Source: Cognatundibacterium crateris (GTDB lineage Bacteria; Pseudomonadota; Gammaproteobacteria; Burkholderiales; Burkholderiaceae_D). From it: a stretch of 64,000 nucleotides of DNA. Each line of letters begins with the position of its first letter. Position 1 is the first letter of the stretch. The notes under the pieces were generated by a model. The model ran no database searches. It saw nothing but the letters and a program-made list of their open reading frames with translations, and was not told the origin of the DNA. Below, piece after piece: positions 38,788 to 64,000 of the stretch. The translations under genes and the position numbers were made by a program. The stretch covers positions 310,001-374,000 of the forward strand of contig NZ_JAABOS010000003.1 in the NCBI RefSeq assembly GCF_010078235.1, read 5' to 3'.

Positions 38788-39015
38788 TGGTCAAATTATC
38801 GCTATTTAAGAATTTCACAAAATTACTTAAGAAAATTACCCAGTTTTTGGGAGATATTTTCTAAATTGCTATTAAGTCTAGTTGGTCACGCTAAATTGTC
38901 CGCTGGGTCGCAGGCCCGTGTCCGGAGAACTGGCAGAACAAAACATGAAGATCAACTGTATCCGAATCTCGTATGTCCCGAACTACGCTCATTACAAAAA
39001 TAATAGCGACAATTT
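38788..39015. repeat. Transposon end with repeated TnsB-site-like motifs
   Basis: AAATTATCGCTATTTAAG at 38793-38810, a shortened AAATTGCTATTAAG at 38863-38876, weaker relatives at about 38819 and 38892, and an inverted AATAGCGACAATTT at 39002-39015. Clusters of about 20-bp repeats at element tips are how TnsB recognises Tn7-like ends. The first bases TG of the presumed tip fit the 5'-TG rule of this superfamily. Confidence 0.55.
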
Positions 39016-39279
39016 GCACGCTTCTGGCAAGAGCTTGCACATTAAGGTGTTATTTACCAACGATACAAAAGTGTTAAATGTTATTTAATAATTTATTGCA
39101 ATGATTTGTATTTTCCCCTTCCTTGCACCATGGCTCAGTTGCTTGCACAGTGCATGGAAGGGGCATCGTACAGGTCCTTCCGATCGGTTCTTGCTTAGAA
39201 AATCTGCGGAAGTCATGATATGCATGGTGTGCGCATTCTGTCAGCTTTTATCATGCTTAACGGGAGATTAGGCTTACAT
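38819..39279. other. 461-bp non-coding stretch inside the transposon tip
   Basis: Beyond the TnsB-like motifs it holds an inverted repeat, CCCCTTCCTTGCAC 39115-39128 with GTGCATGGAAGGGG 39150-39163 (one mismatch). This lies downstream of the HATPase gene and may end its transcript, though no T run follows. No gene is seen. Confidence 0.5.
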
Positions 39280-41601
39280 CTATTTTCCATCCACGCGCAG
39301 GAGATCGCAACGTACCTCGAAGCGCTTTCTCTCGCCTCCCGAAGGAATGAAGCTACCTTCAATCTCCTCAGGCACAGGAATATAGATAGCGTTCTTCAAT
39401 ACCATCGTCGAAGTCTGATAAGTCTTACCACCGGAATGCTGTGAAATTGAATCGCGCGTTTGCAGGTCGTAGTACAGCCCAAACTCACCCGAGTGGTGTA
39501 GGAAAATGAAGAGGACTTTTTGGCCGCCCCACACAATAGACGTTTTGTGCGGCTGCAAGAAAAAGTCACCCATTTCATTCCGGACCTTTTCAGTAAGCGC
39601 AATGAAGCAGCGATATCCGCGAAGCGCAGGCTGATCACGGGGAATTGTTAGTAGCTTCATAGAACTTGATACATCTGTTCGCATAATAGCTGGCAATGCC
39701 TCCAGTGTAGCGATCTCGTCATCGCTGATATTCCGCATCGCTTCTTCATTTCGGACAACATCTGGAACAACATCGGCCACTTGGCCTGCAGTTCCAGCTT
39801 CGACAACTTGAATGGAGCTGCGAACCGCCGATTTAGATTGGTTCACCGCTTCGCTAAGTGAAATCTTGCCTTCAGCATAATTGCTCCAAATCAGCGACAG
39901 ATTCGACGTATCGGTTTCTTCGTACTCAAAGATCTCACGTGGCTTCCGTATTGCCCTCAAAAAAGCTTCAGCGCCTTGTCGTGTGCTACTCGGCACTTTG
40001 TCGGCGACCTTCGGGAAAACTGCGTTACGTACGAAATCTTTTACCATACTTCCAAAAGCACCATATTCAGTGTGGTAAAGGCCAAGAATGGTTGCCACTG
40101 CTGGACCTGCAGGGTCGAGCACAATTTTTGTTGTTTCAATCTTTGACTCCACAAGCATCGTCAGTCCATGAGAGACCGTTCCGAAGATGACATGAGGGCT
40201 GTTTAAGAAATAATCGGTCTCCAAAACTGCCACAATACGAAAAGCCAATGCACTTTGGGCGCTAGTCCACTCTGTTTCCGGTATGAGCTTATCAATTCGA
40301 GGAGCATTGTCGACGGTCTGTACTTTGCAGTATCGCTGTAGGTAATTCAATTCACATTGCTTACGTGGGTTGTTCCTCGCAAGTATAAGAAGAGGCTTAT
40401 CGTCAGTGGAAAAGCTAGCAATAATTGTTTGGTCGGCACCGTCATACACTGGCATTGGAGCGGTCACAGTCCTTGCTTTGATTTCCTCAAGCGGTTCCCG
40501 TTCTCCGGGGTGCATGGAAATTTTGAGTTGGCCACAAAGTTCATAGCGCCCATGCGCGCACACCCATTGCATGAAGGGTGTGCTGGAATCAGCCTCGGGA
40601 CGAGTTGCCAACAGAAGCGAAATGTAGGCATCAATTTCGGTGATCACATTTTGTAGAAGTTGCATGCTGTCAGTGGTCAGTGCCTCTCGTCCAGCAGTAG
40701 GCTGGAAACCTTGTATATCTGCAACTCCACCGAACTGGTAGCTAGATCCGACGGAAACTGTAGCGAGTCCGAAGCCGCTTCGGAATGTCCTTATGGTAGG
40801 AACGCCACTGCGGAGTAACAGCCGACCACTCAATGGAGTGTCGTTCCATCTCATGTTATTAGTAATTAAACTAATATCAGCGTTATTCGAGAGTCTAAGT
40901 TCAAGGTCTGCGACAAAGCGTGGGCCAATTTGCACTCCGATTTTCTCTTCACTCCATGCGACGCTAACAGGTGGTACCAGATTGGCTATTTGCTGCCCAC
41001 TTACGCACTCACCGTTTACGGTCACTCGCGTCTCCAGTAGTGCAACGAACTCGGCAACGTAAGCCTTCACTTGATTTATATCCAAGGGTGTACCAGGGAT
41101 GATGCTCGCAACAATTTCAGTTCCTGGGCGACCGGTTGATGGAAGCCCTTCTGTGGCGATACAGTCCTGATTGAAAACAAGCTCGTCACGTTTTGCAACG
41201 CATCGTGTTCGCTCTCCAGTAATCGCGCTTTCCGTAGTCACTTCCAGCGTATCTGCGATACCAAAGTTCGCCATTGCGCCAATCCCGAATGTCCCAACAA
41301 CGCCGGCTTGACGTGCTTCTTCTGTATTCTTGCTGCTGCTACCCGCTTGCCAAAAATGACGCGCGAGATCGTCCGGAGTCATCCCGATTCCATTGTCGCG
41401 AACCATCACTCGCTGCGGTGTCACTTCAATCTCAATAAGAGGCTCATACTGTTGGTCGCGGTACTTGCGAAGCAATGTTGCATCGAACGCGTTCTGTGTA
41501 TTTTCACGCAACAATGCAAGCGGCGACTGATAAATCTGCTTAGCCAGAAGCTCCAGTACACGCGATGTGTCAACAGCGAATGGAATGAATGCAGTGCTCA
41601 A
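39280..41601 (-). CDS. Hsp90/GHKL-type ATPase protein, candidate defence component
   Basis: 773 residues. The N-terminal 200 residues form a Bergerat ATP-binding fold: N-box 'LALLRENTQNAFDATLLRK', G1 'VRDNGIGMTPDDLARHFW', G2 'VVGTFGIGAMANFG', and a conserved Thr/Gly region 'GRPGTEIVAS'. The middle and C-terminal regions are not recognised and have no transmembrane helix. The stop/start overlap (ATGA) with the upstream metallophosphoesterase gene indicates an obligate two-gene operon. HtpG-like ATPases in defence islands are thought to act as sensors or chaperones for an effector; here the partner phosphoesterase would be the effector (inference). No named system matches that I can recall. Confidence 0.8.
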   Translation of the reverse strand: MSTAFIPFAVDTSRVLELLAKQIYQSPLALLRENTQNAFDATLLRKYRDQQYEPLIEIEVTPQRVMVRDNGIGMTPDDLARHFWQAGSSSKNTEEARQAGVVGTFGIGAMANFGIADTLEVTTESAITGERTRCVAKRDELVFNQDCIATEGLPSTGRPGTEIVASIIPGTPLDINQVKAYVAEFVALLETRVTVNGECVSGQQIANLVPPVSVAWSEEKIGVQIGPRFVADLELRLSNNADISLITNNMRWNDTPLSGRLLLRSGVPTIRTFRSGFGLATVSVGSSYQFGGVADIQGFQPTAGREALTTDSMQLLQNVITEIDAYISLLLATRPEADSSTPFMQWVCAHGRYELCGQLKISMHPGEREPLEEIKARTVTAPMPVYDGADQTIIASFSTDDKPLLILARNNPRKQCELNYLQRYCKVQTVDNAPRIDKLIPETEWTSAQSALAFRIVAVLETDYFLNSPHVIFGTVSHGLTMLVESKIETTKIVLDPAGPAVATILGLYHTEYGAFGSMVKDFVRNAVFPKVADKVPSSTRQGAEAFLRAIRKPREIFEYEETDTSNLSLIWSNYAEGKISLSEAVNQSKSAVRSSIQVVEAGTAGQVADVVPDVVRNEEAMRNISDDEIATLEALPAIMRTDVSSSMKLLTIPRDQPALRGYRCFIALTEKVRNEMGDFFLQPHKTSIVWGGQKVLFIFLHHSGEFGLYYDLQTRDSISQHSGGKTYQTSTMVLKNAIYIPVPEEIEGSFIPSGGERKRFEVRCDLLRVDGK

Positions 41602-43070
41602 TTACTTCTCCTCATTATCTTTTTAAAGTCAAGTTTTGACCATAGGCTATTCTGGGTGCCGACATCAATCCCGAATTCATTGGCTCTGCTTAGTAGTGCC
41701 TCAGCTTCACTCAGCATATTTGCAGAAAAATAAGCACCGATAAGTACAACAAATTCGTCAATACTTTGTGGTGGCTGTAAGAGTGAGATTAACTTTTCCG
41801 TTTGAGAGCTTTTTTGCGCCGCCTCGATGAACAATTTTCGTGCGTAACCCTCGATGTCCGCTCCAAGAGATTCTAGGAGCTCCAGCGCCGTATCCACGTT
41901 ACCTTCTTGCAGCGCTTTTTCTGCCCTCAGAACTGTCGTTGCTGCAAAACTACGGTGGTCCAGGGGGGCGGCCCCAGCACGTCCGGCCGGCAAACTCCAG
42001 CGCAGCTTTGAAAAGCCATCAACTCGAAATACACCACGGCCGCATCGGCCAAAATGGTTGCCTTGCGTCATTTCCCGCACGTGTATTCGAGCGCTAGTAT
42101 AGGAGTCGTCAATCACTACAATATTGTATTCGCGGTTTGTCCCTTGAGGAAGCTCGCGCGAGCCAGCGCAAAGGGATCCTGCGCTGGAAATCGCCATAGA
42201 TAACTCGTCAGGAAGATGGATCGAATATGCGCTAGCGTCTGCCTGATGTTGGTGTCCATGAAACCCTAGCCTGAAACCACACCCCACCATCTCTTGTACC
42301 GCCACGATATCCATATAGTCGTCGCCGTGTGGCGGTCCTTGGAAACTATGATGCCACGCCGCCATGCGTAAGATTGGTTGTTGTGGAAGGTCGCGAATAC
42401 TTAGAGAACATGCTCCTAGCACGCCACGTTTTATGGCACCTTGACGACAAAAGCAATCGTTGCCATGCACCGACTCGAGTGCTGCTATGACGATTCGCCC
42501 GCCATCGAGCTCAAATAAATTAAAACCGCGCTCCCTGTCGATAGGATGTTTGAGATCAACGCCCTCATAGAATCGTTCAACGAATGTCCAGTAGGAATCT
42601 AAGCGTTTCTTGTAAATGTTAGAATCATTAATATCGAAGATCGTTCGAGATGACCAGTCCCAACGTAGGTTGTTGGAAGCCTTAAATAGCTCTGCATAGG
42701 CTTTGATTGGTGGCTCCTCTGGGTCAAGCTCCCTCATAGCATCTCGCGCAGTGTTCCAACACACATCGTGATTACCTGGAACAATTACAATGCGGCTACG
42801 ATCCCCACCAAAAAAACGCTCGGCCACTGAGCACAGGAACTCATATGCGACATCGTACTGCTGTGCCAGTTCGTTAGCGTAATTTGGAGTACCAAGCTTC
42901 ACGCCTTGGATAATGTCGCCACTGATGATCGCTGCATCCGGTTTTGGAACCTCAGGTTTTTCAACAATGTATCGATCTAGGTCGGCAAGCAGCGCATCAA
43001 TTAAGGATGTATTTTCAATTGGATCGTGTGGCGATCTATGTAAGTCTGATAAGTGAAGCAGCGAGAACAC
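41598..43070 (-). CDS. Calcineurin-like metallophosphoesterase with C-terminal helical extension
   Basis: 490 residues. All metallophosphoesterase motifs are present: 'LLHLSDLHRSP', 'AAIISGDIIQG', 'IVIVPGNHDVCW', 'MAAWHHSF', 'LGFHGHQHQAD'. The catalytic part covers about 1-330. Residues about 365-485 are helical with a TPR-like look ('ALQEGNVDTALELLESLGAD', 'AYFSANMLSEAEALLSRAN'). Substrate could be nucleic acid or nucleotide. It overlaps the HATPase start by 4 bp and is the first gene of that operon, divergent from tnsA. Confidence 0.85.
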   Translation of the reverse strand: MFSLLHLSDLHRSPHDPIENTSLIDALLADLDRYIVEKPEVPKPDAAIISGDIIQGVKLGTPNYANELAQQYDVAYEFLCSVAERFFGGDRSRIVIVPGNHDVCWNTARDAMRELDPEEPPIKAYAELFKASNNLRWDWSSRTIFDINDSNIYKKRLDSYWTFVERFYEGVDLKHPIDRERGFNLFELDGGRIVIAALESVHGNDCFCRQGAIKRGVLGACSLSIRDLPQQPILRMAAWHHSFQGPPHGDDYMDIVAVQEMVGCGFRLGFHGHQHQADASAYSIHLPDELSMAISSAGSLCAGSRELPQGTNREYNIVVIDDSYTSARIHVREMTQGNHFGRCGRGVFRVDGFSKLRWSLPAGRAGAAPLDHRSFAATTVLRAEKALQEGNVDTALELLESLGADIEGYARKLFIEAAQKSSQTEKLISLLQPPQSIDEFVVLIGAYFSANMLSEAEALLSRANEFGIDVGTQNSLWSKLDFKKIMRRSN

Positions 43071-43399: not shown

Positions 43400-44107
43400 A
43401 TGCCAACCCGAAAAATCACCCGAAGCCCCGTCAAAGTCACTGGCACTACCCCGGATGACCAGCAATTCGAGTCGACGCTAGAAGAAGATTTTCTGGTACT
43501 GATGCGTTTCAACCGCCTGGTCGACAGCGAGCGAATAGAGACGCAGTCGGTCAAGGTAGATTGGCAAGACGACGCTGGCAAGATGCGCACCTATACCCCC
43601 GACGTGCTGGTTCATTTCCGCAAGGATCTGACCGAATCCAGGGATCTGCCCTCAAGGCTATGCGAGATCAAACCGAACCTCGATGAGGACAACAAGAAAG
43701 ATCGCCCCTATCCTCCTCGCACCGAAAATGCAGCAGAAAATAAACTCAAATGGGCCGCCGCCTCGCGCCTTGCGGCGATGCGCGGCTGGGAATTTTCCAT
43801 CGTGTACGAGCGCGAGATACGTACGCCCTATCTCGACAATGCCAAGTTCCTGATGCGCTACCTGGAGCACACTCCTGCCAGCCAGATCGACGCTCAAATG
43901 CTGGCTTGCCTGACGCAGGAGGGGCCGATCAGTCTGGAGGAATTTATCAAAAAATTTGCCAAAAATTTGGAATCTCGCGCTAAAATATTTCCGAATTGCT
44001 ATCGACTGATTGCAACTCAACAGATCCATGTCGATTTAACGAAGCGCCTTACTTTACAGACGATCCTGACTTCAATTGATGCAGGTAACCAGCCTCCCTC
44101 TTCGTGA
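43400..44107 (+). CDS. tnsA: TnsA-like transposon endonuclease
   Basis: 235 residues from the ATG at 43400 (AGGAG eight bases upstream). PD-(D/E)xK nuclease core: Glu in 'FESTLEEDFLVLMRF', Asp in 'YTPDVLVHF', then 'LCEIKPNLDED'. A C-terminal helical part (about 150-235) resembles the TnsA winged-helix region that contacts TnsC. It nicks the 5' ends of the transposon so that, with TnsB, transposition is cut-and-paste. It overlaps tnsB by 29 bp. Confidence 0.88.
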   Translation: MPTRKITRSPVKVTGTTPDDQQFESTLEEDFLVLMRFNRLVDSERIETQSVKVDWQDDAGKMRTYTPDVLVHFRKDLTESRDLPSRLCEIKPNLDEDNKKDRPYPPRTENAAENKLKWAAASRLAAMRGWEFSIVYEREIRTPYLDNAKFLMRYLEHTPASQIDAQMLACLTQEGPISLEEFIKKFAKNLESRAKIFPNCYRLIATQQIHVDLTKRLTLQTILTSIDAGNQPPSS

Positions 44108-46103
44108 AGGTTCCATAGTCAACTGCGCAGACGCGCAGTGGCGCATCGTCTGGATTGAAGGATTCGACAGGGTTCTGGCGGAGCGCGTGGTGGACAGCCA
44201 CAGGGAATATTTGGCGATCCCTGACCTGAAAGTGGTCGAATGGAATGCCAATTCCCTGGCCAAAACGCTTGACACTGAGCCATCACCTCCAACCTCGCTG
44301 GCAACCAGCATATATGCAGTCCGCCTCAAGCAGCGTCAAGTACGAGCCCAACCAGTCGAACGTGATCTGTCGGATACGCAAAAGCAAGATAGCGTAACGA
44401 CCTCTGATGAATTCCAGTTCGCGCAAATGGTGCTTGCTGCACGACGGCAAGACAGGCGTAAGCTGATCGCCGAGATGGCCGAGCGATTCGGCTACAGCAC
44501 GCCAAGCGTCTATCGTCGGCTTAAGATCCTCAAGCAACACAACAGCGCTGACGCTCTGCACCGCGCCGTGCGTTCCGATGCCGGTGTCAAACGGTTGTCC
44601 AAGGAAGTGCTTGATCTAGCGGAGGAATATCTGAGGAGGTATCGTTTCATCGAAACACCCAAGTCGATGAGGGATGTCATTGAGCTCCTCAATGGAAAAT
44701 GCCGGGAGCTCGGTTTGCCGGAAATTAGCCAGTCGACCGTTTACAGCATCGAGCAACGCACCCCACTCAAAAAGCGCCTACAGTTTCAAGGCCGCAAGAA
44801 CCAGGTGCGCGACCAGTATCGGCCCAAGGCCGGCCATCTACCAGGCAACGACTACCCTCTTGCGATTGTTCAGGTCGACCACACACCCTGCCAAATTTGT
44901 TTTGTCGACGAGATTGATCGCCAGCCGATCGGCGACGCTTGGCTAACCATCGTGATTGATACGTATAGCCGAATGATCCTGGGTTACTACGTGACATTTG
45001 AGGCACCGTCCACGTTGTCGACTAGCATGGCATTGGCACACGCCTTTCTTCCGAAAGAAAAATACTTGCGTGACCTGGGTATCTCCGGAGAATGGCCTTG
45101 CTGGGGTTTCCCAGACCTCATTCACGTCGACAATGGTGGAGATTTGAATGGCCGCATGATGCATGGTGCTAGGCGAAAATATCGTTTTAATATTCGCAAT
45201 CGGCCGGTCGGCGGTCCCAACTTTGGCGGCCACGTCGAAAGCGCGTTCCGTACTTTCATGTTCGAGATCAAGAGCTTGCCCGGCACCAAATTCTCTAATC
45301 CTACCGAACGGGCGGAATACGACTCCGAGGGGCGGGCAGTCATGACACTGGCGGAATTTGACCGTCTTTTCGCGGACTTCCTCGTTAATGACTATCACCT
45401 GGATGAACATTCTGGGGATGGCATGAACAAGATGACGCCTTTGCAGCGCTGGCGTAAGGGGATTTTTGAAGGTGACGTCATGCCGCCTAGAGGATTGCCT
45501 GAGCGACCCGTCGACGAATTATCCCTGCGGCTGTCCCTGATGCCATTCGAGATGCGCACCGTACGCCAAGGGCAAGTCAAAATCCTAGGCGAGGAGTACT
45601 ACAGCGGGGCTCTGACGCTCCTGAGCGACAGCATCGACCTCACCAAGCCGCTATCGGATCGCAAGTTTGAGGTGCACTACGATCCGCGCAACATATCAAA
45701 GGTTTGGCTCTACGACGATACTTCGTCCGCCTATATAGAGGTACCGTTTGCCGATCTGCGCAAGTCCCCTATCAGTAAATGGGAAAACGACGCGCGCAAG
45801 CGCCGGCGCGGTAACCCAGCGGAGGAATTCAAGGAAGAGCGCTATCAGAGCAAGATCCGTCGACTGGAAATGGTGGAAGAATCGGCGAAGAAGACCAAAC
45901 AGACCCGGCGCGAAACTGAAAAAGCCGCTCGTCGCGAACGAACTGCCCTAGTACAGCCTCCTCCGGTGCCGAAGCCGTCGGCCACCACCACGGTCAAAAA
46001 GCAAGGGCTTGATCCAACACGCCTGGCTAGGTTGAAAAATTTGGTTAGGGAGGCACCAATTCCAAACGACATAATAGAGGGGACACATAAAGATGACACG
46101 TGA
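44079..46103 (+). CDS. tnsB: TnsB/TniA-like DDE transposase
   Basis: 674 residues from the ATG at 44079. The N-terminal part carries helix-turn-helix DNA-binding segments ('MAERFGYSTPSVYRRLKIL'). The RNase H-fold core has the DDE triad: Asp in 'IVQVDHTPCQI', Asp in 'LIHVDNGGDLNG', Glu in 'NFGGHVESAFRTF'. A Mu-transposase-like beta domain follows, then a Lys/Arg-rich tail (about 565-640) typical of the TnsC-interacting region. It binds the transposon ends and joins the 3' ends to the target. Its end overlaps tnsC by 11 bp. Confidence 0.93.
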   Translation: MQVTSLPLREGSIVNCADAQWRIVWIEGFDRVLAERVVDSHREYLAIPDLKVVEWNANSLAKTLDTEPSPPTSLATSIYAVRLKQRQVRAQPVERDLSDTQKQDSVTTSDEFQFAQMVLAARRQDRRKLIAEMAERFGYSTPSVYRRLKILKQHNSADALHRAVRSDAGVKRLSKEVLDLAEEYLRRYRFIETPKSMRDVIELLNGKCRELGLPEISQSTVYSIEQRTPLKKRLQFQGRKNQVRDQYRPKAGHLPGNDYPLAIVQVDHTPCQICFVDEIDRQPIGDAWLTIVIDTYSRMILGYYVTFEAPSTLSTSMALAHAFLPKEKYLRDLGISGEWPCWGFPDLIHVDNGGDLNGRMMHGARRKYRFNIRNRPVGGPNFGGHVESAFRTFMFEIKSLPGTKFSNPTERAEYDSEGRAVMTLAEFDRLFADFLVNDYHLDEHSGDGMNKMTPLQRWRKGIFEGDVMPPRGLPERPVDELSLRLSLMPFEMRTVRQGQVKILGEEYYSGALTLLSDSIDLTKPLSDRKFEVHYDPRNISKVWLYDDTSSAYIEVPFADLRKSPISKWENDARKRRRGNPAEEFKEERYQSKIRRLEMVEESAKKTKQTRRETEKAARRERTALVQPPPVPKPSATTTVKKQGLDPTRLARLKNLVREAPIPNDIIEGTHKDDT

Positions 46104-46980
46104 GGAGCGCTACCCACATCTCCATCCCAACGTTGCCCGTATGGCGGAGCAGTCAAACGAGAGGCGAATCAAGTACATCGAGCAAGATCGATTTGTTGTA
46201 CATCGCCGTGCCGAGGAAATTTTAACTGAGCTTGAAACTCTTTATCGCATGGAAGACTCCGTGCGTCCGCAAGGGAGATTGATCGTTGGCCGATCCTTAA
46301 TGGGAAAGAGTGCTGTCATCGATCAGTTCATGAAAAATCACCGTGCCACAGATAATCCGGACGGGCCAGCTGCACTCGTACCGGTTCTGTCGATTCAATA
46401 TCCGGATACGGCCAAGGAAGGTATCTACCCTGAAATACTGAGGAAATTGAACGCTGTCCCGTCTTCGAACGCCAAACCACATCAAGTTCGCGCGGACGCA
46501 ATCAGCCTTGTTCAAACTGTAGGCTGTCGGATTATCATTATTGATGAGATTCACAATCTGTTGGAAGGTAGTGCGACGGCGCAGAGAAAGGGATTGAATT
46601 CCATCAAATATTTAATGAACGAGTTGAGGCGTCCAATCGTAGCGGCCGGCACCGCCGAAGCAGTTAATGCCGTGCGCGCAGACGAACAAATTTCGAGCAG
46701 GCTCAAGCAGTTGCCATTAAAGCGATTCAAGGACGATGAAGATTTCATGGAGCTACTCGCGGGATTTGAAATGTTATTGCCGTTACGACGGCCATCCGCA
46801 CTAGATGACTCTAGTCTCGCATCGCTAATTCATCGCGCGACGTTAGGTGTCACCGGAAACGTATCTGATTTATTGAACAAGGCCGCCATTACCGCTATCA
46901 AATCCGGCAACGAACTGATCTCCGAAGAGGAAATTACGCAATGCATTGGCGAGGAGATTGCTGACATCGCCGATCTCTAA
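46093..46980 (+). CDS. tnsC: TnsC/TniB-like AAA+ target-complex ATPase
   Basis: 295 residues, the short TniB-type length. Walker A 'LIVGRSLMGKSAVI', Walker B 'CRIIIIDEIHNLLEG', sensor region 'PIVAAGTAEAVNAV', C-terminal lid. It links the target selector (TniQ/TnsD) to the TnsAB transposase. It follows tnsB with an 11-bp overlap and precedes tniQ by 7 bp. Confidence 0.92.
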   Translation: MTREERYPHLHPNVARMAEQSNERRIKYIEQDRFVVHRRAEEILTELETLYRMEDSVRPQGRLIVGRSLMGKSAVIDQFMKNHRATDNPDGPAALVPVLSIQYPDTAKEGIYPEILRKLNAVPSSNAKPHQVRADAISLVQTVGCRIIIIDEIHNLLEGSATAQRKGLNSIKYLMNELRRPIVAAGTAEAVNAVRADEQISSRLKQLPLKRFKDDEDFMELLAGFEMLLPLRRPSALDDSSLASLIHRATLGVTGNVSDLLNKAAITAIKSGNELISEEEITQCIGEEIADIADL

Positions 46981-46987
46981 AATCATC

Positions 46988-48004
46988 ATGACCAGGATTT
47001 ACGGTTTAACCGGACGTCGGTTGCCAATTCATCCGCAGCCGCTCCCAGACGAGCTCTTTACCCATTGGTTTACGCGTCTTTCGCATTCGAATGGATTAAA
47101 AGTGCAGACACTGGCGGATCGCCTTTTCGGGTACCCCAGCTCTTTTTGGGCGCGAGATCAAGATAAGCTGGCGAGTCAACAGGCGATCGACGCACTTGCC
47201 GAAGTGACAGGTCAAGTACCAGAAGATCTATTGCGACTGACGCTGAGGCCTTACGGTGACTATCTCTATGCAAAACACAATCCTTTTGGTAACACGCGCT
47301 GGATTTTGCCACTTGGGGTGTATCACCGTACTCGCAGACACGGTCTGCAATTCTGTCCACTATGCTTGCGTTCGGATGTACCGTACTTTAGGCGGTGCTG
47401 GCGGCTGTCCTTCTACGTTGAGTGCGATCACCACCATGTTTTGATGCTGGATGCTTGTCCCAATTGCAAAGCACCTGTGATGTTTCATCGAGCAGAACTG
47501 GGGCATCGACATCGCCGTGGGTATCCTCCTACCGTCAATTGTTATCGCTGTTGCTTCAACTTGAGTTGGGCCAGCGCACAAACCTATGACTGGGCTGACC
47601 AGCAAGCGATGCTAGCTGCACAGGCAGCCATATTTTGTCACTTTCGACACAGTGCCTTCTTGCATGAGCGTACCTTCGAATCGGCACAAACTTTTTTCGA
47701 TGTGCTCTACCTACTGTGCAATCGTATTGGCTCATCACGCCGTACTGGTGAATTATATGACTGGGTTCAAGAGCAGATCAGGCCACACGAGACGCGGCAG
47801 ATCAATCGCCGCGTCAACAAGTTCGATGATCGGCCAATATGGGAAAGAGCACGCATCTTGGAGGCGGCATTTTGGTTACTGTGCGACTGGCCGTATCGCC
47901 TGAATAGCGCGATAAGGGAGCTGAACATCTACCCATGTTTATTGACGCCTGAGCAAGGCGAAAGAAATACATGGCTATTAGAAGCGATGCCATTGTTCGA
48001 CTGA
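46988..48004 (+). CDS. tniQ: TniQ-family target selector (TnsD/TniD type)
   Basis: 338 residues from the ATG at 46988; the longer frame from 46946 overlaps tnsC and lacks a ribosome-binding site. The TniQ pattern: 'IHPQPLPDELFTHWFTRLSH' at the start, zinc motifs 'QFCPLCLRSD' with 'CDHHHVLMLDACPNC', and a second pair 'VNCYRCCFN'. At this length and position it should be the sequence-specific selector that directs insertion into comM (inference from where the element sits). Confidence 0.9.
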   Translation: MTRIYGLTGRRLPIHPQPLPDELFTHWFTRLSHSNGLKVQTLADRLFGYPSSFWARDQDKLASQQAIDALAEVTGQVPEDLLRLTLRPYGDYLYAKHNPFGNTRWILPLGVYHRTRRHGLQFCPLCLRSDVPYFRRCWRLSFYVECDHHHVLMLDACPNCKAPVMFHRAELGHRHRRGYPPTVNCYRCCFNLSWASAQTYDWADQQAMLAAQAAIFCHFRHSAFLHERTFESAQTFFDVLYLLCNRIGSSRRTGELYDWVQEQIRPHETRQINRRVNKFDDRPIWERARILEAAFWLLCDWPYRLNSAIRELNIYPCLLTPEQGERNTWLLEAMPLFD

Positions 48005-55337: not shown

Positions 55338-55647
55338 ATCGCTGCAGGCCGTCCAGCAAACGCTGCGCCACTTGAGGATTGAAGGCTTTGGGCGAAGTCA
55401 TGCCGCTAAGTTCATCGACCAGCTCGAGTTCATCCGCAATTTCAAACGCCATCTCCACAACCTCTGGACGAAGGTTTGGGTTATGGTGCTTTTGCTGAAC
55501 GAAAATAGCAGCCCCTCGCGCGACGTCATACAGGTACGTCTGCAGCTCTGGAGAGAGGTCTTGCTGATTTGTTGATAGCACTCTTACCAAAGCACGAACA
55601 AACGCGAGCGACGATGCTGGCCGCGTGGTGTTTGCATATATGCTCAT
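55324..55647 (-). CDS. Small helical protein, first gene of the peptidase/Dcd operon
   Basis: 107 residues from the ATG at 55647, with AGGA seven bases upstream. All-helical and charged, no domain recognised ('LVELVDELSGM'-like region near 75-90; ends 'AQRLLDGLQRFAAA'). Its size and first position would suit a regulator or antitoxin-like inhibitor of the downstream enzymes; that is inference only. Confidence 0.65.
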   Translation of the reverse strand: MSIYANTTRPASSLAFVRALVRVLSTNQQDLSPELQTYLYDVARGAAIFVQQKHHNPNLRPEVVEMAFEIADELELVDELSGMTSPKAFNPQVAQRLLDGLQRFAAA

Positions 55648-55764
55648 AATATTCCTAAGATTGGTGTGAGGATCGAACAACCCAACATTATGCCAAGAAT
55701 ATAATACCCTGTCGATGTTGCCAAGGATTAATTATGGAATTGCCAAATTGATACACTGCTATCT

Positions 55765-58260
55765 TCAGCTGCGTCGATTTTGGATTCGTGCCTCGGAAAG
55801 CAGGTGTATATCCTCAGTTTGCACCGATCCGCTGGAAAGTGACGCACGCATGTCCTGATATACAGGTTCTTCTTGCTCTAGATCTGAAATACTGAGAACG
55901 ATGGCAAACGGAACCCCTTCAGGTGGGAAAGGTTCTTCAGCTCGCTCCAGGTATTTAAGGCTGACCTGCCATTGCGATGATTGTCCCACGCCGCCTTTGG
56001 AAGAGAACTGAACTTTCTTCACGTTGTTCCACTTCTGGCTCTCTTGAATGAGATCTTGTTCCGTCTCATGTTTAGAGGAGCTGCCAGTCTTGAACACGTT
56101 CTTCGACTTGACATCGAACTTACCGGTTCTCACATTGCGCTGGTGCAGAGCTACTACCATATCGACCCGGATCAGCTCAGCTCCAAATGCATCGTTGACT
56201 GGTGGCGTGTACACCAAGGTGGCCCAAGCCTTGCCTCGGCAACTACCAGAGTCGTTGAGGCAGGCTGGCCAATCAAATTCGAAGAACATATCTTTTTTGG
56301 GTTGGAGTGTGTCTATGAACACCAGGGTTGCACTGCTAGGGTTTCCATTGAGAAATTCCTGCGCAGCCGGTGGCACACCATAACCAATAAGATCTTTTCG
56401 AATCCTATCGAATACTTTGGCCGACAGAGGTTTGGACTCAGATGTACCGTGGATACATAGTGCAATGAGCGCTTCTCTGGAGAGCTTGCCCTCAGTGAGT
56501 TGATCAATTCTCGCCATCGTCTTCGCAACGATAGGCGCTGCAAAACTGGTCCCACAGTTCCAAATAATACTGCTGTCGGTAGTTACCACCTTTAGCTCGG
56601 TGCTGGCGCCCGCTGCGGCGCCATGACCTCCGTAGTGCACTACATCGGGCTTGATGTGACCTTTAAAGCCAGGGCCGCGACGAGAGTATCGCGCAGGTGC
56701 TTCCGCAATATGCATAGTGCAGCTACGAGGGTTGAGCGCGCCGACACTCAGACTGAACAGCGAATCACCAGGAGCAGTTACTCGATCATCAAATGAGGTC
56801 GCCAGATCGCTGAGCACGTCGGTATGAGATGCTTTCCATTCGGGGCGATGCGCCCCCGGAGGGAGATTGCCGGCAGAGACGACAAACACTACATCGTTAG
56901 CGACTGCAATCTGATCTAGTCCCATCGAGAACTCATCATACGTTGCAGAAGGAAGCAGCTCTTTTACATTGTGTGCGAAGCAAAACACGCGAGCGCCGGC
57001 AGACTCCTTGGCGCGCCGAACTTCATCGTTGAGCGCAAGCAGAAAATCTTGTTGGTCGCCGTAGTACAGCGAGAAAGTGTCCTCAGTCGGCATGAGGCCA
57101 ATATCGACCAGAAAACAGCCATCTGGCTCCGCACACAGTAACGGGCCGTTGATAGCCTGACCATCGACCAGTAGGCTACCAATTTCCGTGCCATGATCTT
57201 CATTCGTATGGTGGCGCGGCACTGCAACCACCTGGCTTGAGATCCAGTCGCTCAGAACATTGCTGATGCCGCCGTCGATGACCGCTACAGTTGGATATTG
57301 CGCGTTATTAATCGGCTTAGAAAACGTGTGAACACCCGCACTTACACTCTTCCCAGCAGATGAGCCTAGTGTGAATGCGCTTGGCAGTCCGATCCTGCGC
57401 ACCAGGTGGCTTTGATCCAGGAATGCGAGTAAAGATTCGTGGCGGAGAACAGCAAGATCCACATCGTCGAATACCCGTCTCGATCGACCTTGCCATTGAC
57501 TTATAGACTGGATCGACATGTCTTTCATCAGCCAAAGATAGAGGCGTGTGACCCGGCCTTTTTTATGCAGCAGTGCGTAATAACCTCCGCCCAAAGCCTG
57601 CCCTAAATTTCTGAAAAAAGAATCGTATGATCCCGCCGATGCCAGAGATCTGGCGACACGCTTGTCTTGCGGCTCAATGAAGTCAAACAGATCGATACGA
57701 TAGCGCAGCGCCAGTTTCTTGTCTGCGGCCCATTTAGTCGCCTGTTGAGCTGAAAACGAACGTTTGTCGGCCGCAGACCAAACTGACACTCCTGCGACCG
57801 CGCTCGCTTCAACCCGACTTGTCGTTGGTGCGGGCATGTCTTCGTACTCGCCCGTTTTTTTATTGACTTTTTCTTTAGTCGCGACCTCGACCTCAGCATT
57901 GAGCACTTTTTCTGCGGTCGTGATTAACTGCGATGAGGTTGCCTGAACAATGAGTTCGCCACTGTCTTCGAGTCCGACCACAGGTGTTGCGCGTGAGGGA
58001 AACAGCGTCGACGTTGGACGATGAGACTTCGCATGTGCATCGGCGTGCATTTTTACTTTTATGTACCCGAGCTCAGACGGATTGCGCGCAAGTACACCAG
58101 ACGCTGCTTTTAATGACGCTGCTAACGCGTTACGATGCCTGGCGAAAGCTTCATTGGCCCCCGCAAAAAAATCAGTACCGCCGCCGCCAGGGGAGCGATC
58201 CCTGTTATCCTGATAGGTTCGCACGTCCAGTACTACCTCAATTGGCGAATAGCCGCTCAT
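55765..58260 (-). CDS. ietS: Subtilisin-like (S8) serine protease, IetS-type defence effector
   Basis: 831 residues. The S8 domain spans about 325-620: Asp in 'TVAVIDGGISNVLSDW', His in 'HTNEDHGTEIGSLLV', Ser in 'WNCGTSFAAPIVAKT'. N-terminal 1-320 and C-terminal 640-831 regions are of unknown fold, the latter beta-rich. There is no signal peptide, so it acts in the cytoplasm. Pairing with an AAA+ ATPase 12 bp upstream matches the IetAS arrangement, first seen as a plasmid-stability pair in Agrobacterium and later as an anti-phage system. The symbol is given by analogy. Confidence 0.82.
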   Translation of the reverse strand: MSGYSPIEVVLDVRTYQDNRDRSPGGGGTDFFAGANEAFARHRNALAASLKAASGVLARNPSELGYIKVKMHADAHAKSHRPTSTLFPSRATPVVGLEDSGELIVQATSSQLITTAEKVLNAEVEVATKEKVNKKTGEYEDMPAPTTSRVEASAVAGVSVWSAADKRSFSAQQATKWAADKKLALRYRIDLFDFIEPQDKRVARSLASAGSYDSFFRNLGQALGGGYYALLHKKGRVTRLYLWLMKDMSIQSISQWQGRSRRVFDDVDLAVLRHESLLAFLDQSHLVRRIGLPSAFTLGSSAGKSVSAGVHTFSKPINNAQYPTVAVIDGGISNVLSDWISSQVVAVPRHHTNEDHGTEIGSLLVDGQAINGPLLCAEPDGCFLVDIGLMPTEDTFSLYYGDQQDFLLALNDEVRRAKESAGARVFCFAHNVKELLPSATYDEFSMGLDQIAVANDVVFVVSAGNLPPGAHRPEWKASHTDVLSDLATSFDDRVTAPGDSLFSLSVGALNPRSCTMHIAEAPARYSRRGPGFKGHIKPDVVHYGGHGAAAGASTELKVVTTDSSIIWNCGTSFAAPIVAKTMARIDQLTEGKLSREALIALCIHGTSESKPLSAKVFDRIRKDLIGYGVPPAAQEFLNGNPSSATLVFIDTLQPKKDMFFEFDWPACLNDSGSCRGKAWATLVYTPPVNDAFGAELIRVDMVVALHQRNVRTGKFDVKSKNVFKTGSSSKHETEQDLIQESQKWNNVKKVQFSSKGGVGQSSQWQVSLKYLERAEEPFPPEGVPFAIVLSISDLEQEEPVYQDMRASLSSGSVQTEDIHLLSEARIQNRRS

Positions 58261-58272: not shown

Positions 58273-59448
58273 TTATTTAGTTTTACGCGAGACTGTTGAC
58301 TTACCTTTGCGAACGATCTTCGAGGTATCGCTCAAGCTGAGTTCAAAATAGTCGTTATGGCGTAGCCAACCCATGAGCTCGGTGTCACTCTGGAAAAGCA
58401 CTGCGCGAAGCGGAGAGGACAGCCTGCCGCTGTTGAGTGTTGCGATATCGCGTAGCGCTGCCAATGGAGATGGGGCGGCAGGAGGCAAGACGCAGCGTTT
58501 CTTATAAGCGATCAAGAAATCCTCAATCTCCGCCCCGGAGCAGCCATCAAGTAGTGCAGCGATAAACTTCAACTCGGGCTCAGAAATTTCCAGTGGCTGC
58601 GAATACAGCTTTGCGATCACCAAACGTGTTTTGAAGTCTGGCAACGGCACTTCAATTTGCGCGCTGAATCTGCGCCAGACGGCCGTATCAAGCAGTTTGG
58701 GGTGATTCGTAATCCCAATGGTGACGCCCGAGTCTTTTCTATTGTCCAGATTCTGCAGCAGCGCATTGACTACGCGTTTGATTTCCCCGACCTCGTTAGG
58801 GTCGTCACGCATCTTGGCAAGCGAGTCGAACTCATCTAAAACCAAAATGCACCGGAAGCGATTGGCGAAAGAAAACACCTGGGCGATATTTCGCGCAGAT
58901 GTCCCCAAAAATGACGACATCATCGCATCGATGCGTGCGAGTACGACAGGCAAACCGAGTTGGCCGGCAAGCCAGTAAGCAAGCGATGTCTTGCCAGTAC
59001 CTGGGGGGCCTACAAGTAGACAGGAACTGGTTGGCAGAATCCCCAGCTTACTCAACTCTTCACCGTTTCTCCATTCGTTTACTACCTGTGTCATGGCGCG
59101 TACGAACTCATCTGGGAAGATCGGCAACTCAGTAGACAGTTGGTCAGGGAAAATTACTTCGACCAATCTTGCTCCTGTTTCTTTATCCGCTGGCAGGTGA
59201 GTCGATGGAAGAAGCACCTCTCCAGGCAGGCTGCGCGCGCGCGAGGGCACAAGTTTTCGTGGTGCCATCTCCGAGGAGCGTTCCGCCTTCATAAGTAAGG
59301 CGCGTAGGCTCTTGGATTCCGGCGTAAGCCCGCCTTCTTCCAGTGCTTTTTGTAATCGCTCAATCTGAAATAACAATGCCTCACTAGGCGAGGCGAGTGC
59401 TACGCGACAAATTGCGCTGATGATTGTAAAGTGCTTTGAGACGTTCAT
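58273..59448 (-). CDS. ietA: AAA+ ATPase, IetA-type partner of the protease
   Basis: 391 residues. Walker A 'LLVGPPGTGKTSLAYWLAGQ', Walker B 'CILVLDEFDSLAKM', sensor 'GITNHPKLLD', Arg finger in 'TAVWRRFSAQI', C-terminal lid about 295-330. FtsH/spastin-like single AAA domain preceded by about 120 residues of linker. It would control or feed the S8 protease. Promoter region upstream (59449-59880) contains a LexA-like box 180 bp from this start. Confidence 0.85.
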   Translation of the reverse strand: MNVSKHFTIISAICRVALASPSEALLFQIERLQKALEEGGLTPESKSLRALLMKAERSSEMAPRKLVPSRARSLPGEVLLPSTHLPADKETGARLVEVIFPDQLSTELPIFPDEFVRAMTQVVNEWRNGEELSKLGILPTSSCLLVGPPGTGKTSLAYWLAGQLGLPVVLARIDAMMSSFLGTSARNIAQVFSFANRFRCILVLDEFDSLAKMRDDPNEVGEIKRVVNALLQNLDNRKDSGVTIGITNHPKLLDTAVWRRFSAQIEVPLPDFKTRLVIAKLYSQPLEISEPELKFIAALLDGCSGAEIEDFLIAYKKRCVLPPAAPSPLAALRDIATLNSGRLSSPLRAVLFQSDTELMGWLRHNDYFELSLSDTSKIVRKGKSTVSRKTK

Positions 59449-59880: not shown

Positions 59881-61332
59881 ATGGCCGACATCGAGAACGA
59901 CGAGACAACGATCAAACGCATCTGTTATTGCTGCATCAGCGAGACCTATCTCGCCAGCGAGATCAGATCGTCCGGCGTCGAAGCCGAATGTGACTATTGC
60001 GGTAAGAGCGAACCGTCAATTGGCATCGACGTGCTAGCGGAATGGATCGAGGAGGCGTTTTCCGATTACTACACACGCACTGCGGACCAGCCGAAAACAT
60101 GGCAGGAACGTCTCATGGCCGACAGTGAGTCGTACTATAACTGGGATCGCGAGGGCATGCCGGTCAACGAGGCGATCCAAGAGGCTGCCGGCATTGACGA
60201 GGAGCCTGCAGCCGATGTCCTCGAAATCCTTGAAGAAAGGCACGCGCCGTACCCGGATAAGGACAATATCGGTGAAGAGAGTGAGTTCTCTTCGGATTCG
60301 TACTACGAGTGCGGCCATCCGACCTTTATTGGACTTCACATGGAATGGCACGAGTTTGAACAATCCCTCAAGACCAAGGCGCGCTTCTTCAGTCGTACGG
60401 CGGAAAAACTCCTCGCCCAGGTTTTTGGGGGCATCGACAGGCTCAAGACTCGAGCAGGTCGCTCACTGGTCGTAAATGCAGGTCCCGGGGCGCAGCTCGA
60501 TCATCTTTATCGTTCGCGTGTTTTTCAGGCGGAAGACTTGCTTAAGGAGGCGCTGTGTCGTCCTGACGCCCACATCGGTTCACCGCCCCCCAAAATGGCG
60601 CGCGCCGGTCGAATGAACGCACAAGGAATCTCGGTCTTCTATGGCGCGACAAAGGTGAATGTTGCCATTGCCGAAGTCCGGCCGCCCGTCGGAAGCCGCG
60701 TGGTCGCAGCCAGATTCGACATCACGCGGGAGCTACGGCTACTTGATCTCACTGCGGCGAATGATGTGCACGAAGAGGGCAGCATTTTCGATCCTTCTTT
60801 TAAGGAACGTTTGCACCGCGCCGAATTTCTGCGCTCACTAGGGTTGCGCATGGCGCGTCCCGTGATGCCGGATGACGAAGGGATCGATTATTTGCCGACG
60901 CAGGCTGTCGCCGACTTCCTAGCAACGGCCAATGACCCGCGCCTCGACGGAATCATCTTTCCGTCCGCGCAGGTGGAGAAAGGGTGCAACGTTGTCCTTT
61001 TCCACGAATCGGCGAGAGTCGCGGAAGAGACAATTCCAGAAGGGACGGAGATCAAGGTTAGTACCGGTCACGACTCCGAAGATGGCTGGGAAGTCGACTA
61101 TTCCGTGACTGAGACAGTCCCCCTACCGGAAGCCCCGAGACCAGACGATAAAGACGATGGATTTCTGGGAACCTTTCTGCACTTCATTCGACCGCTGGAC
61201 GACGACCGCCAGGAAACGCTTCGCCTTCTCACCACCTCAGTCGAGGTTCACCACGTAACCTTGGTCAAAGTCAGCACTGAGTCCCATTCTGTTCACCGCT
61301 ATCAACGCGAGAATCGCCCGTCCGGATACTGA
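59881..61332 (+). CDS. RES-domain protein with N-terminal zinc-finger/HEPN-RES domain
   Basis: 483 residues. N-terminal Cys motifs 'CYCCISETYLASEI' and 'ECDYCGKSEPSIGI' plus the following helices match the HEPN/RES N-terminal family. The RES domain is at about 235-385: 'GRMNAQGISVFYGATKVNVA', 'AEVRPPVGSRVVAARFDI', and a later 'GIIFPSAQVEKGCNVVLF'. RES toxins degrade NAD+, and the Arg/Tyr/Glu pattern needed for that is visible. No small Xre/MbcA antitoxin gene is adjacent, so it is not a standard RES-Xre pair. In this island a stand-alone abortive-infection role is plausible. Confidence 0.8.
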   Translation: MADIENDETTIKRICYCCISETYLASEIRSSGVEAECDYCGKSEPSIGIDVLAEWIEEAFSDYYTRTADQPKTWQERLMADSESYYNWDREGMPVNEAIQEAAGIDEEPAADVLEILEERHAPYPDKDNIGEESEFSSDSYYECGHPTFIGLHMEWHEFEQSLKTKARFFSRTAEKLLAQVFGGIDRLKTRAGRSLVVNAGPGAQLDHLYRSRVFQAEDLLKEALCRPDAHIGSPPPKMARAGRMNAQGISVFYGATKVNVAIAEVRPPVGSRVVAARFDITRELRLLDLTAANDVHEEGSIFDPSFKERLHRAEFLRSLGLRMARPVMPDDEGIDYLPTQAVADFLATANDPRLDGIIFPSAQVEKGCNVVLFHESARVAEETIPEGTEIKVSTGHDSEDGWEVDYSVTETVPLPEAPRPDDKDDGFLGTFLHFIRPLDDDRQETLRLLTTSVEVHHVTLVKVSTESHSVHRYQRENRPSGY

Positions 61333-61361
61333 ACCAACCTGTCCGATTGGATTAGTAGTAG

Positions 61362-61382: not shown

Positions 61383-61527
61383 ATCACTTTTAATAGCAAC
61401 CCGTGTCAATCATGGAGTTGCCGAATCATGTATGAAGCTTCAAAAGATAGCCGCTGGTTCGTTCTGGAAGTGCTTAATGAAACCGATAAAAAGTAATCAA
61501 TTGACAGCTTGATCAAGGATGGTATCG

Positions 61528-62928
61528 ATGAATCGTGTGTTCCAAATTGACGCCTTTGGGCGCTTCAACAGCTTTTATGGGAAACCAGAATGCCGTTTTG
61601 TCGTGCTAAATCTGTACAAGGGTATCTGCCAGTCCTGTGACGCAAAGATCGTTGGCGACGCCTATCACGTTGCGCATATCATCTCGCGCACGCACCCAAC
61701 GCTCATGGAGAAGTATTTTCCCGGATTAGATGTCGACAATCTCCTGAATTTGCAGCTGTCGTGTCCGTCGTGCAACCTCAAGGTAAGCAACTTTGTACTC
61801 GATACACCGCTTCTTTTGCATACTTTTACCTGTTCTGCTCGAGCTATTTCGCTGCGATTGAGTTCGGTCATGGCGCGCCTATGCAGTGAGAGCAAACCGG
61901 TTCAGATGAGTGGCGTCGATCCTAAAATATGCACCGACGTGCTTCACATTAGCATGGGAGAACTTTACGACATTTCGACGGATTGGCATGGCGCTGTCGT
62001 GATTTCGAATGACAAGCTGAAGGATCGCATTCGCCAAGAAATGACACTGGCACTCGGATATGAACCCGACGACTGGGCTGTATATTCAACGTTGACGGAA
62101 GCTATTGGCAATTTCAAGGATCTCATTCAGGTGAACGGAAGCCGCATGTCTTGGATAGGAGTGAAGAAGCCTGAATGGTGGACCGAGGCATACGCGCGGC
62201 GCTACAGTCGCGATGGAAGCGATATTCCCAATTCGACCAACAAGGATGGTTCCATTATCACAGATGACCTTGCAGACGGCATTTATCTTGATCAGGATGA
62301 ACTCAATGGGCGCCAAGGCCTCTGGATTCCATTGCGTACAGAAACACAACGGTGGTTTTGCGACGTGATTGGTACCATCGTTCGCACTAGACGTAAACTT
62401 GAGACTCAAACTGATCACAAGCGTTACGTCGTCTTGGATGAGGACGCATGGCATAGTCTGTGTGATTGTTTCGAGCAGCTGACCTATGTGGAATCCGGCC
62501 TCGGAATATCAGCCAAGCGGTTAAAAGCGCCTGAAGCATTCATGCATTTTGCCGTTACTGATGGCGAACTCTACATGCACGATGAAGGTCGTGTAATTCC
62601 GGAAGAGGTCATACGGCTATGCCGTGTGGCAGGTGAAACGACAATTTGGGGTGATGGAATCGTGCTGCGATGGACTAAGATCAAGTCGTGGCTCGAGCAC
62701 GGTTTCGCCTTGGCCGAACTCGGTGCACAGAAGGCCGTCGGACCGCACTTGGTTCGGATTAATGATGAGCGTCTTCAATGGAGATGGGTTCCGCAGCTAC
62801 CGCGGACCATAGGAAAGACACGAGATCAAGTCCAAAGGGAAGCCGAGGCAGAAACAATGCTTCACTCGAAAAGGGGAAGACGCCGGATCAACAAGGCCTT
62901 CGTTTGGGTGTCGCCGGTGGTTGTCTAG
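61528..62928 (+). CDS. HNH endonuclease-domain protein
   Basis: 466 residues from the ATG at 61528, with AAGGA nine bases upstream. The HNH module is at about 30-90: 'GICQSCDAKIVGDAYHVAHI', 'NLLNLQLSCPSCNLKVSNF', with both CxxC pairs, the His pair and Asn. The remaining about 370 residues carry no domain I recognise and may recognise the target. No methylase gene is adjacent, so a type IV-like or stand-alone defence nuclease is more likely than a classical restriction system (inference). Confidence 0.82.
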   Translation: MNRVFQIDAFGRFNSFYGKPECRFVVLNLYKGICQSCDAKIVGDAYHVAHIISRTHPTLMEKYFPGLDVDNLLNLQLSCPSCNLKVSNFVLDTPLLLHTFTCSARAISLRLSSVMARLCSESKPVQMSGVDPKICTDVLHISMGELYDISTDWHGAVVISNDKLKDRIRQEMTLALGYEPDDWAVYSTLTEAIGNFKDLIQVNGSRMSWIGVKKPEWWTEAYARRYSRDGSDIPNSTNKDGSIITDDLADGIYLDQDELNGRQGLWIPLRTETQRWFCDVIGTIVRTRRKLETQTDHKRYVVLDEDAWHSLCDCFEQLTYVESGLGISAKRLKAPEAFMHFAVTDGELYMHDEGRVIPEEVIRLCRVAGETTIWGDGIVLRWTKIKSWLEHGFALAELGAQKAVGPHLVRINDERLQWRWVPQLPRTIGKTRDQVQREAEAETMLHSKRGRRRINKAFVWVSPVVV

Positions 62929-63022: not shown

Positions 63023-63325
63023 TTACAGCCACCTTGTCACGCCACCGTGATGAGAGCAAGTGCCACGGTGGTTTCTGCTGAAACTGTAAGTCCCATCACG
63101 GCATTTTGCACTGGCACCATTGGGAACCTTGTCATCTATTGATTTTGACGGAGCATGCACGTTTTGACCGGCTTTGTCGGTGTAATGCTTGTGCGACGTC
63201 AGTTTGGATTCATCTGGTTCGGATTTTTGCGTGGATGGCGGCGGCTGCAGCTGCGCATAGGCCGGAGCCAACGGTGAAATGGCGACAATTGCTGCTAAAA
63301 CGAAACTAACGATACGCACGCTCAT
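63023..63325 (-). CDS. DUF3761 family small secreted protein
   Basis: 100 residues from the ATG at 63325. Signal peptide ('IVSFVLAAIVAISPLAPAYA'). The C-terminus 'CRDGTYSFSRNHRGTCSHHG' is the DUF3761 signature (two Cys, HHGGV). A periplasmic or secreted protein of unknown function, and a non-defence cargo gene. Confidence 0.82.
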   Translation of the reverse strand: MSVRIVSFVLAAIVAISPLAPAYAQLQPPPSTQKSEPDESKLTSHKHYTDKAGQNVHAPSKSIDDKVPNGASAKCRDGTYSFSRNHRGTCSHHGGVTRWL

Positions 63326-63723
63326 TCCTTTCAATACCCCGCCCCAGTGCTAGCAACCCCTGCTTGGCGACGCGTTAGATAGTAAAAAGATGAGTATAAA
63401 AGAAATAATTTAAATAGGGCAATATTGCAATTTAAAACTCTGCACTAGTGCGTCCATAAGTGCTCGTATGGGGTGGGCTGCGACGTAGTTTGTTTAAGTC
63501 TGTGTTCAAACACGTTGATCAAGCTGTTAACTTTTCGTCGCAGCTAATCGATAGACTAAATTTACTAATCATTTCTCACTAATCAAAATGCGACGGAGAT
63601 TTGTAGATTTGATCACTGGCAGCGCCACTACGTCGTTTGCCGAACATGGCACTAATTTGATCAAAGGGCTCCCGACAGCGTATTGGAAGGCGAGAACGCA
63701 CCGATCCAATGTATGATGAGGGA
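63326..63723. other. 398-bp intergenic region
   Basis: AT-rich, with a short palindrome GCAATATTGC flanked by TTTAAAT/ATTTAAA near 63410-63437 and a CGTCGCA/TGCGACG inverted pair near 63537-63595. No gene and no match to the left-end motifs is seen, so the other transposon end is not here. Confidence 0.4.
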
Positions 63724-64000
63724 ATGATTGTCTTTCTCGACATTGATGGCGTGTTGCACCCTGAGCCGTGCTATGACAAGGCTCAATTTTTTATTTTTCT
63801 GCCTCGCTTGGAGCGCGTTCTGCGCGAATTCCCACAAGTTCAAATCGTCATCAGCAGTACATGGCGTCACAACAGGACTTTGGAACAACTACGAGAGATA
63901 TTTTCACCGGACATTGCTGTACGAGTTGTTGATGTCACGCCGCGTTGGTCCATGCTTCCGGATTTGATGGAGAGCATCGGTTATCAGCGTCATGTGGAAA
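63724..64000 (+). CDS. HAD-family protein (HAD_SAK type), 3' end beyond window
   Basis: Open from the ATG at 63724 to the window end (92 codons). It begins 'MIVFLDIDGVLHPEPCYDKA', the HAD motif I DxDGV, and has motif II-like 'VQIVISSTWRHNRTLEQLRE'. Matches the 'HAD domain in Swiss Army Knife RNA-repair' family, common as accessory cargo. The catalytic end is not visible. Confidence 0.8.
   Translation, partial: MIVFLDIDGVLHPEPCYDKAQFFIFLPRLERVLREFPQVQIVISSTWRHNRTLEQLREIFSPDIAVRVVDVTPRWSMLPDLMESIGYQRHVE

Follow-up and report, generated by a model that had tools for sequence, protein, structure and literature searches.

The window analysed here is a 64,000-nucleotide stretch of the Cognatundibacterium crateris genome (C23:310001-374000 of a 4.31-Mb genome in 42 contigs), and it contains the left part of a Tn7-like transposon that splits the gene comM and carries transposition genes, candidate defence genes and other cargo (Table 1). 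A betaproteobacterial host, as supposed in the initial annotation of this DNA, is probable, since the best 16S matches in a plasmid collection were Cupriavidus and Burkholderia at 92-93%.

Boundaries and transposition genes of the element

The break in comM was located at window positions 38787/38788, and the frame of the C-terminal half (38129-38818) encodes the Mg_chelatase and Mg_chelatase_C domains (Pfam). A DNA search of the same genome showed that the left junction sequence recurs at C23:394066-394112 on the opposite strand, and the 5' half of comM, encoding the ChlI domain, was found at C23:394117-394975, with the other element end 20.1 kb past the window. The initial annotation had described comM as cut mid-gene by a Tn7-like element, which these results confirm; the second end, the 5-bp duplication and the comM 5' half that it expected past position 64000 are all present, and the DNA there is not ordinary chromosome.

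The comM flanks joined at the break give a 171-bp empty site, which was searched in 26 genomes, our own included, with matches in 16. The site was unbroken in genome G764 of the same genus (171/171 bases, 95% identity), ten more same-genus genomes spanned the junction at 70-81% identity, and four same-genus genomes in this search gave no match. Our own genome matched solely as two separate pieces. The comM gene of G764 is a single open frame of 514 residues, to which our two halves are 99% and 98% identical at the protein level.

TnsA, TnsB, TnsC and TniQ are encoded in one operon, and the element has terminal inverted repeats (TIRs) and a 5-bp target site duplication (TSD). Its ends, TSD and empty site are established, and it is a complete Tn7-like transposon. 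Tn7-like ends usually start with TGT, a habitual but non-defining trait that is missing here: the ends start with TGG in our element, G608 and G420, and with TGT in G410, G489 and G573. By its appearance an intact member of the Tn7 family, the element probably reaches the site of Tn6022 by another route.

The five transposition genes listed by the initial annotation are present, four by Pfam and the tnsE-like gene by homology, and all five open reading frames (ORFs) are open. Homologues of the 557-aa TnsE-like protein occur in several Tn7-like elements; the one in G410, which matches Pfam TnsE_C above the cut-off (8.1e-13), is 24.6% identical to ours over 321 aa (E 6e-17). Our protein itself gave no TnsE_C match at E ≤ 10. 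Searches of Pfam, PADLOC and NCBIfam with it were likewise negative, PDB gave nothing at a useful E-value, and the TnsE-like profile had no hits in PDB either. Its identification as TnsF, guessed from its position behind tniQ, was rejected: it had no TnsF match, it groups with TnsE-like proteins, and a zinc-finger pattern of the TnsF kind was not seen by eye. In G143, a TnsE-like gene of 631 aa adjoins a gene that looks by eye like recQ (L006:499-3382).

Table 1. Features of the comM insertion and of its cargo within the window
Feature	Position in window	Strand	Evidence
comM 3' (C-terminal) half	38129..38787	-	Pfam; comM of G764
5-bp TSD, GCCAC	38783..38787; second copy C23:394112-394116		Both element flanks
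Tn7-like element	38788..64000 (in-window part); whole 45,324 bp, to C23:394111		Terminal repeats, TSD
Left TIR	38788..38833	+	43/46 identical to right end
HSP90-type HATPase, 773 aa, candidate defence gene	39280..41601	-	Pfam HATPase_c_3 2e-9; NCBIfam HSP90 2.7e-27, below cut-off
Calcineurin-like phosphoesterase, 490 aa, overlaps HATPase gene	41598..43070	-	Pfam Metallophos 1.5e-9
tnsA	43400..44107	+	Pfam TnsA N and C domains
tnsB, DDE transposase	44076..46103	+	Pfam Mu-transpos_C 1.6e-9; rve 0.0013, below cut-off
tnsC, TniB-type AAA	46093..46980	+	Pfam TniB 1.1e-57
tniQ, short form, 352 aa, candidate comM selector	46946..48004	+	Pfam TniQ 3.7e-26
tnsE-like, 557 aa	48124..49797	+	Homology to G410 protein passing Pfam TnsE_C cut-off
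Caspase-family protease, CanA-like	50064..51200	+	Pfam Peptidase_C14 1.1e-8
461-aa middle protein, CanB position	51197..52582	+	No family match
Metallo-beta-lactamase (MBL)-fold hydrolase, CanC/Avs1a/LmuA-like	52579..53631	+	PADLOC LmuA 1.8e-66, Avs1a 2.4e-40
dCTP deaminase-like (DCD)	53633..54265	-	Pfam DCD 7.7e-30
367-aa protein, HEIGH zincin-like motif (by eye)	54234..55337	-	Sequence
118-aa small protein, first gene of DCD operon	55324..55680	-	26% to same-place gene in L094
IetS subtilase	55765..58260	-	PADLOC IetS 9.6e-238
IetA AAA ATPase	58273..59448	-	PADLOC IetA 1e-135
HEPN/RES N-terminal + RES domain protein	59881..61332	+	Pfam; no PADLOC match at 0.001
HNH nuclease-domain protein	61519..62928	+	Pfam HNH 1.2e-5; no PADLOC match at 0.001
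HAD_SAK_2 gene start	63709..64000 (gene runs to 64170)	+	Beyond window

TnsF-less comM insertions among relatives

In the parts of Faure et al. (PMC10293859) on which we draw, Tn6022 locates comM via its target selector TnsF (tniE/orf3), bridged by a short TniQ. Searching by tblastn (E ≤ 1) with queries from Acinetobacter (L015) and Halomonas (L013), we found no TnsF in 92 kb including the element; the Acinetobacter query also gave nothing in our whole genome, in a search run without a control of its own. By tblastn, the same query detected TnsF in relative L057 at 1e-92. A profile of five TnsF sequences had its best value over the 92 kb, 5.0, outside the element; the values were 1e-239 to 1e-241 for three of the copies in the profile, and 4e-128 and 1e-82 for two pieces of a copy outside it (L011). 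No second TniQ was found in the genome at E ≤ 0.001. An RNA-guided route, that of CRISPR-associated transposons (CASTs), was rejected, with no Cas domain among the scanned proteins and no comM-matching spacer found (best match 14 nucleotides, E 0.21). The type I-B1 CAST with a comM CRISPR RNA, described in the sections of PMC11406308 used here, shares the comM attachment site with our element and differs from it in both of these respects.

TniQ relatives were found at E ≤ 0.001 in 38/399 genomes of the order and 9/369 of the class (our genome included in both), and at E ≤ 1e-25 in 4/43 and 2/22 genomes of two families. From the order-level list, 18 of the 48 places besides our own were fetched, namely the 17 strongest and one weaker place of TnsF type; three places from the two-family lists and L039 from a named collection brought the total to 22. 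Eleven of these 22 (L039-L043, L045, L046, L048, L054, L056 and L077) had no TnsF in the fetched stretch and a comM half at the conserved junction. L057, from the same order as our genome, combined TnsF with a comM insertion, L055 had a comM fragment short of the junction, and comM was not visible in the fetched stretch for nine relatives (L044, L047, L049-L053, L078 and L079). Our own included, this gives 12 TnsF-less comM insertions, all at the same VGGG codons, six judged on both junctions and six on one; having been chosen among the strongest matches, they give no frequency estimate. A TnsF-less, comM-targeting Tn7-like lineage was not found in the literature searched, which included parts of PMC10293859 and PMC11406308 and had supplements and closed-access papers outside its scope.

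Six of the 12 elements were read completely, and in each of them (6/6) the 5-bp duplication lies within or beside the VGGG codons of comM. These six encode a TnsE-like protein (6/6) and no TnsF (0/6), and three have a XerD-like extension of TniQ. Five of the six sequences had gone into the TnsE-like profile, and the sequence left out (G573) scored 5e-27; tblastn at 1e-4 misses the gene in the G573 element and the profile search detects it, so that TnsE cannot be excluded on the ground of absence. The extension-free elements, namely ours and those of G410 and G573, share only TnsA, TnsB, TnsC, TniQ and the TnsE-like protein (E ≤ 1e-3; antisense overlaps set aside). TnsE-like genes also occur in relatives without visible comM in the fetched DNA (L047 with L089, L049, L051, L052, L078 and L079); TnsE therefore does not track the site.

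The TniQ proteins of the 12 comM elements comprise six of 510-542 aa, one of 412 aa and five of 345-366 aa (ours included), and neither TnsF nor a XerD-like piece was present in the DNA read of our element and the four other short-TniQ elements. The XerD-like piece fused to the long TniQs is degenerate, and its match to XerD presumably stops short of the last catalytic residues. The extension is homologous among L040, L041 and L042, and its match in XerD is to the initial portion of the catalytic domain (PDB 1a0p, 1e-7; 5dcf, 1.2e-7). Profile comparison showed no similarity between the extension and TnsF, and so did not support an origin from a TnsF-like protein. A six-frame search of our element did not find the XerD-like piece, including as a separate ORF, and the 120 bp downstream of tniQ showed no remnant of the extension. 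The tnsE-like gene begins about 120 bp behind the short tniQ in our element and about 100 bp behind it in L039; it lies elsewhere in the long-TniQ elements L040, L041 and L042, and at the far end in the short-TniQ elements of G410 and G573. One case of a TniQ-TnsF fusion (SCZ64694) is given in the parts of PMC10293859 consulted, and was compared by that description: the sister TniQs of 510-542 aa likewise carry a fused XerD-like piece, but their extension lacks similarity to the TnsF profile and is absent from our element.

In the TnsB and TnsC trees, our element forms a clade with L039, L040 and L041 (100/100), and a TnsF-bearing clade without our element was recovered in the TnsB, TnsC and TniQ trees (100/100 in each). 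The TniQ tree placed our protein with L039-L042 at 99/95 and set four TnsF-bearing TniQs apart at 100/100. The proposal of the initial annotation that the element extends the Tn6022/AbaR group was not upheld, given this branching and the absence of a detectable TnsF. The two share the tnsA-tnsB-tnsC-tniQ order, a short TniQ, a TnsE homologue (that of Tn6022 according to the same parts of PMC10293859) and insertion at the same comM codons with tnsA beside the comM 3' part (compared via L057), but Tn6022 encodes TnsF behind tniQ, and our element stands on a separate branch in all three trees. The approximately unbiased (AU) test did not reject uniting the TnsF-less comM TniQs with the TnsF-bearing ones (p 0.257), and a single origin of comM targeting is possible.

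Three further observations were made on the relatives. The insertion at L077:5369-6309 lies at the same comM codons in reversed orientation, with the comM N-terminal half adjoining tnsA. L050 (G608) and L079 (G811) have a short TniQ of another TniQ branch and no TnsF match, and both adjoin the same gene, which is ArsR-like by eye and may mark another attachment site. The proteins at L043:8193-9386 (DruA family, Pfam) and L039:18522-19703 are 72.5% identical, which suggests recent cargo transfer; the TniQs of L043 and L039 are each about 41-43% identical to ours.

Selection of comM

The evidence tips slightly towards a reading in which the transposon belongs to a TnsF-less lineage specific for comM and the TniQ core itself is the likeliest comM selector, TniQ being the best candidate by elimination. 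The roles of TnsA, TnsB and TnsC are standard Tn7 biology, assigned here from the genes: TnsA and TnsB would excise and join the element, and TnsC would connect them to the target. The TniQ core would recognise the VGGG codons of comM, upstream of the Walker B motif, and the TnsE-like protein most likely serves a different route, one that leads to replicating or plasmid DNA. Insertion disrupts comM and places a defence-rich cargo there. We infer the selecting role of TniQ, the activity of the element and the function of its cargo. In a stronger form, to which we give a little less than an even chance, the TniQ core would read the VGGG site alone, without a TnsD-type extension, TnsF or guide RNA, and the XerD-like piece and the TnsF of Tn6022 would each represent an independent recruitment of parts of tyrosine recombinases for this gene.

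Several points weigh against selection by the TniQ core. In the portion of Faure et al. (PMC10293859) used here, a short TniQ is taken to point to an additional selector. The close relatives L040 and L041 bear the extension, which our element may have lost. The TnsF-less comM group was unsupported as a clade, being neither shown nor rejected (TniQ AU p 0.166; TnsB 43/42), so that TniQ tracking the site is not proven. The TnsE-like protein accompanies every complete comM element, and a selector unlike anything searched for could hide in the cargo. The two AlphaFold models, computed on two-row alignments for the TnsE-like protein and TniQ, failed (mean predicted local distance difference test (pLDDT) 31.5 in one and 35.9 in the other), so that a DNA-binding domain could not be discerned from them.

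It is also conceivable, though unlikely, that the short TniQ works with a selector supplied in trans, such as a tyrosine recombinase of the host or the TnsF or long TniQ of another element present at insertion. A Xer-type protein would be the natural guess, as sister elements fuse a XerD-like piece to TniQ, but neither TnsF nor a second TniQ was found in the present genome, and a like helper would have been needed repeatedly for five short-TniQ elements at the same site, in genomes of different families or, for L039, in a named collection. We regard as quite unlikely a takeover of comM selection by the TnsE-like protein from a lost XerD-like extension. The tnsE-like gene lies close behind the short tniQ in our element and L039 and elsewhere in L040-L042, and its occurrence in all six complete elements fits such a takeover; however, G410 and G573 combine a short TniQ with a tnsE-like gene at the far end, relatives without visible comM also have the gene, and TnsE homologues are near-universal in glmS- and comM-targeting elements according to the sections of the review PMC11406308 used here.

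There is, lastly, a slim chance that the element is by now a defunct, truncated copy whose insertion dates from a time when its TniQ had the extension or a TnsF was at hand. The homology of the extension among L040, L041 and L042 suggests a loss on our branch, but the five transposition ORFs are open, the TIRs agree at 43/46 positions, the TSD is exact and the comM halves remain 98-99% identical (protein) to intact G764 comM. The missing remnant behind tniQ, and the lack of an extension at the same place in L039, likewise speak against a truncated copy.

Cargo of the element and implications

The initial annotation counted at least six defence modules in the cargo. The six gene groups that it named all exist: IetAS and a Canu-like operon have good support as defence modules, a further two groups are conserved candidates, and the remaining two, each a single gene, are suggestive. 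IetAS is firmly identified by its adjacent predicted IetA and IetS, both of which match nearly full length with nothing notably different seen. The operon of caspase, middle gene and MBL-fold gene is Canu-like by make-up and well supported as a putative defence module: like Canu (canABC; PMC12799240, November 2025, in the part consulted), to which it is likened by gene make-up, it combines a caspase, a middle gene and an MBL-fold nuclease-like gene, overlapping in one operon. The MBL protein also matches the reverse transcriptase (RT)-associated MBL model of PADLOC and is 34% identical to the corresponding gene of a similar operon on Caballeronia pNK84. The C-terminal part of the 461-aa middle protein has weak relatives, which adjoin caspase genes in two records that were inspected; a search of viral_contigs with the protein gave no relative.

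The operon of DCD, zincin-like and 118-aa genes is a conserved defence candidate. Its order is kept in L094:4699-6703, among phage-like genes on the 93-kb E. coli plasmid pEC213_2, whose DCD gene is 50% identical to ours, and in L095:3624-5718, between restriction-system parts in Emticicia. The DCD-like protein matched none of the PADLOC dCTP deaminase defence models at E ≤ 0.001, and a literature search combining dCTP deaminase, metallopeptidase and phage defense found no paper. The phosphoesterase-HATPase operon is likewise a conserved candidate: the HATPase is 34% identical over 99% of its length to a protein of P. aeruginosa plasmid pPUV-9, where a phosphoesterase 33% identical to ours is adjacent, although a HATPase relative in Rhizobium sp. 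007 without an annotated phosphoesterase counts against the pairing. The RES and HNH genes are suggestive of defence as single genes.

Past the window, the element continues with HAD, weakly Mrr-like and weakly GIY-YIG-like genes, DUF3761, a DNA/RNA endonuclease, a second RES gene, a TPR-HEPN gene and a weak DUF4145 gene. A peptide locus at L003:7411-14887 (window scale 69411-76887) encodes a RamC_N/kinase/LanC protein, a 251-aa protein, HlyD, a C39 ABC exporter and a 74-aa ORF resembling by eye a double-glycine-leader precursor, and appears to be a class III/IV-like lanthipeptide synthesis and export locus. The description of the cargo as almost entirely defence-like was therefore too strong, though much of it is defence-like. 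Elsewhere in the window, G+C falls to 40% at 7001-9000, compared with 51-53% on either side.

In the part of Benler et al. (PMC8649781) consulted, known innate systems are carried by 26% of Tn7-like transposons and median lengths are 14-29 kb; by these figures, the 45-kb multi-system element is rich but of a known sort. With this cargo, IetAS and a Canu-like operon gain another carrier, and two conserved candidate modules are added. Our element and those of G410 and G573 provide complete short-TniQ cases whose exact site is known. If the stronger form of selection by the TniQ core holds, comM would have been reached by several independent selector designs, and a self-sufficient short TniQ would be a compact tool for site-specific integration.

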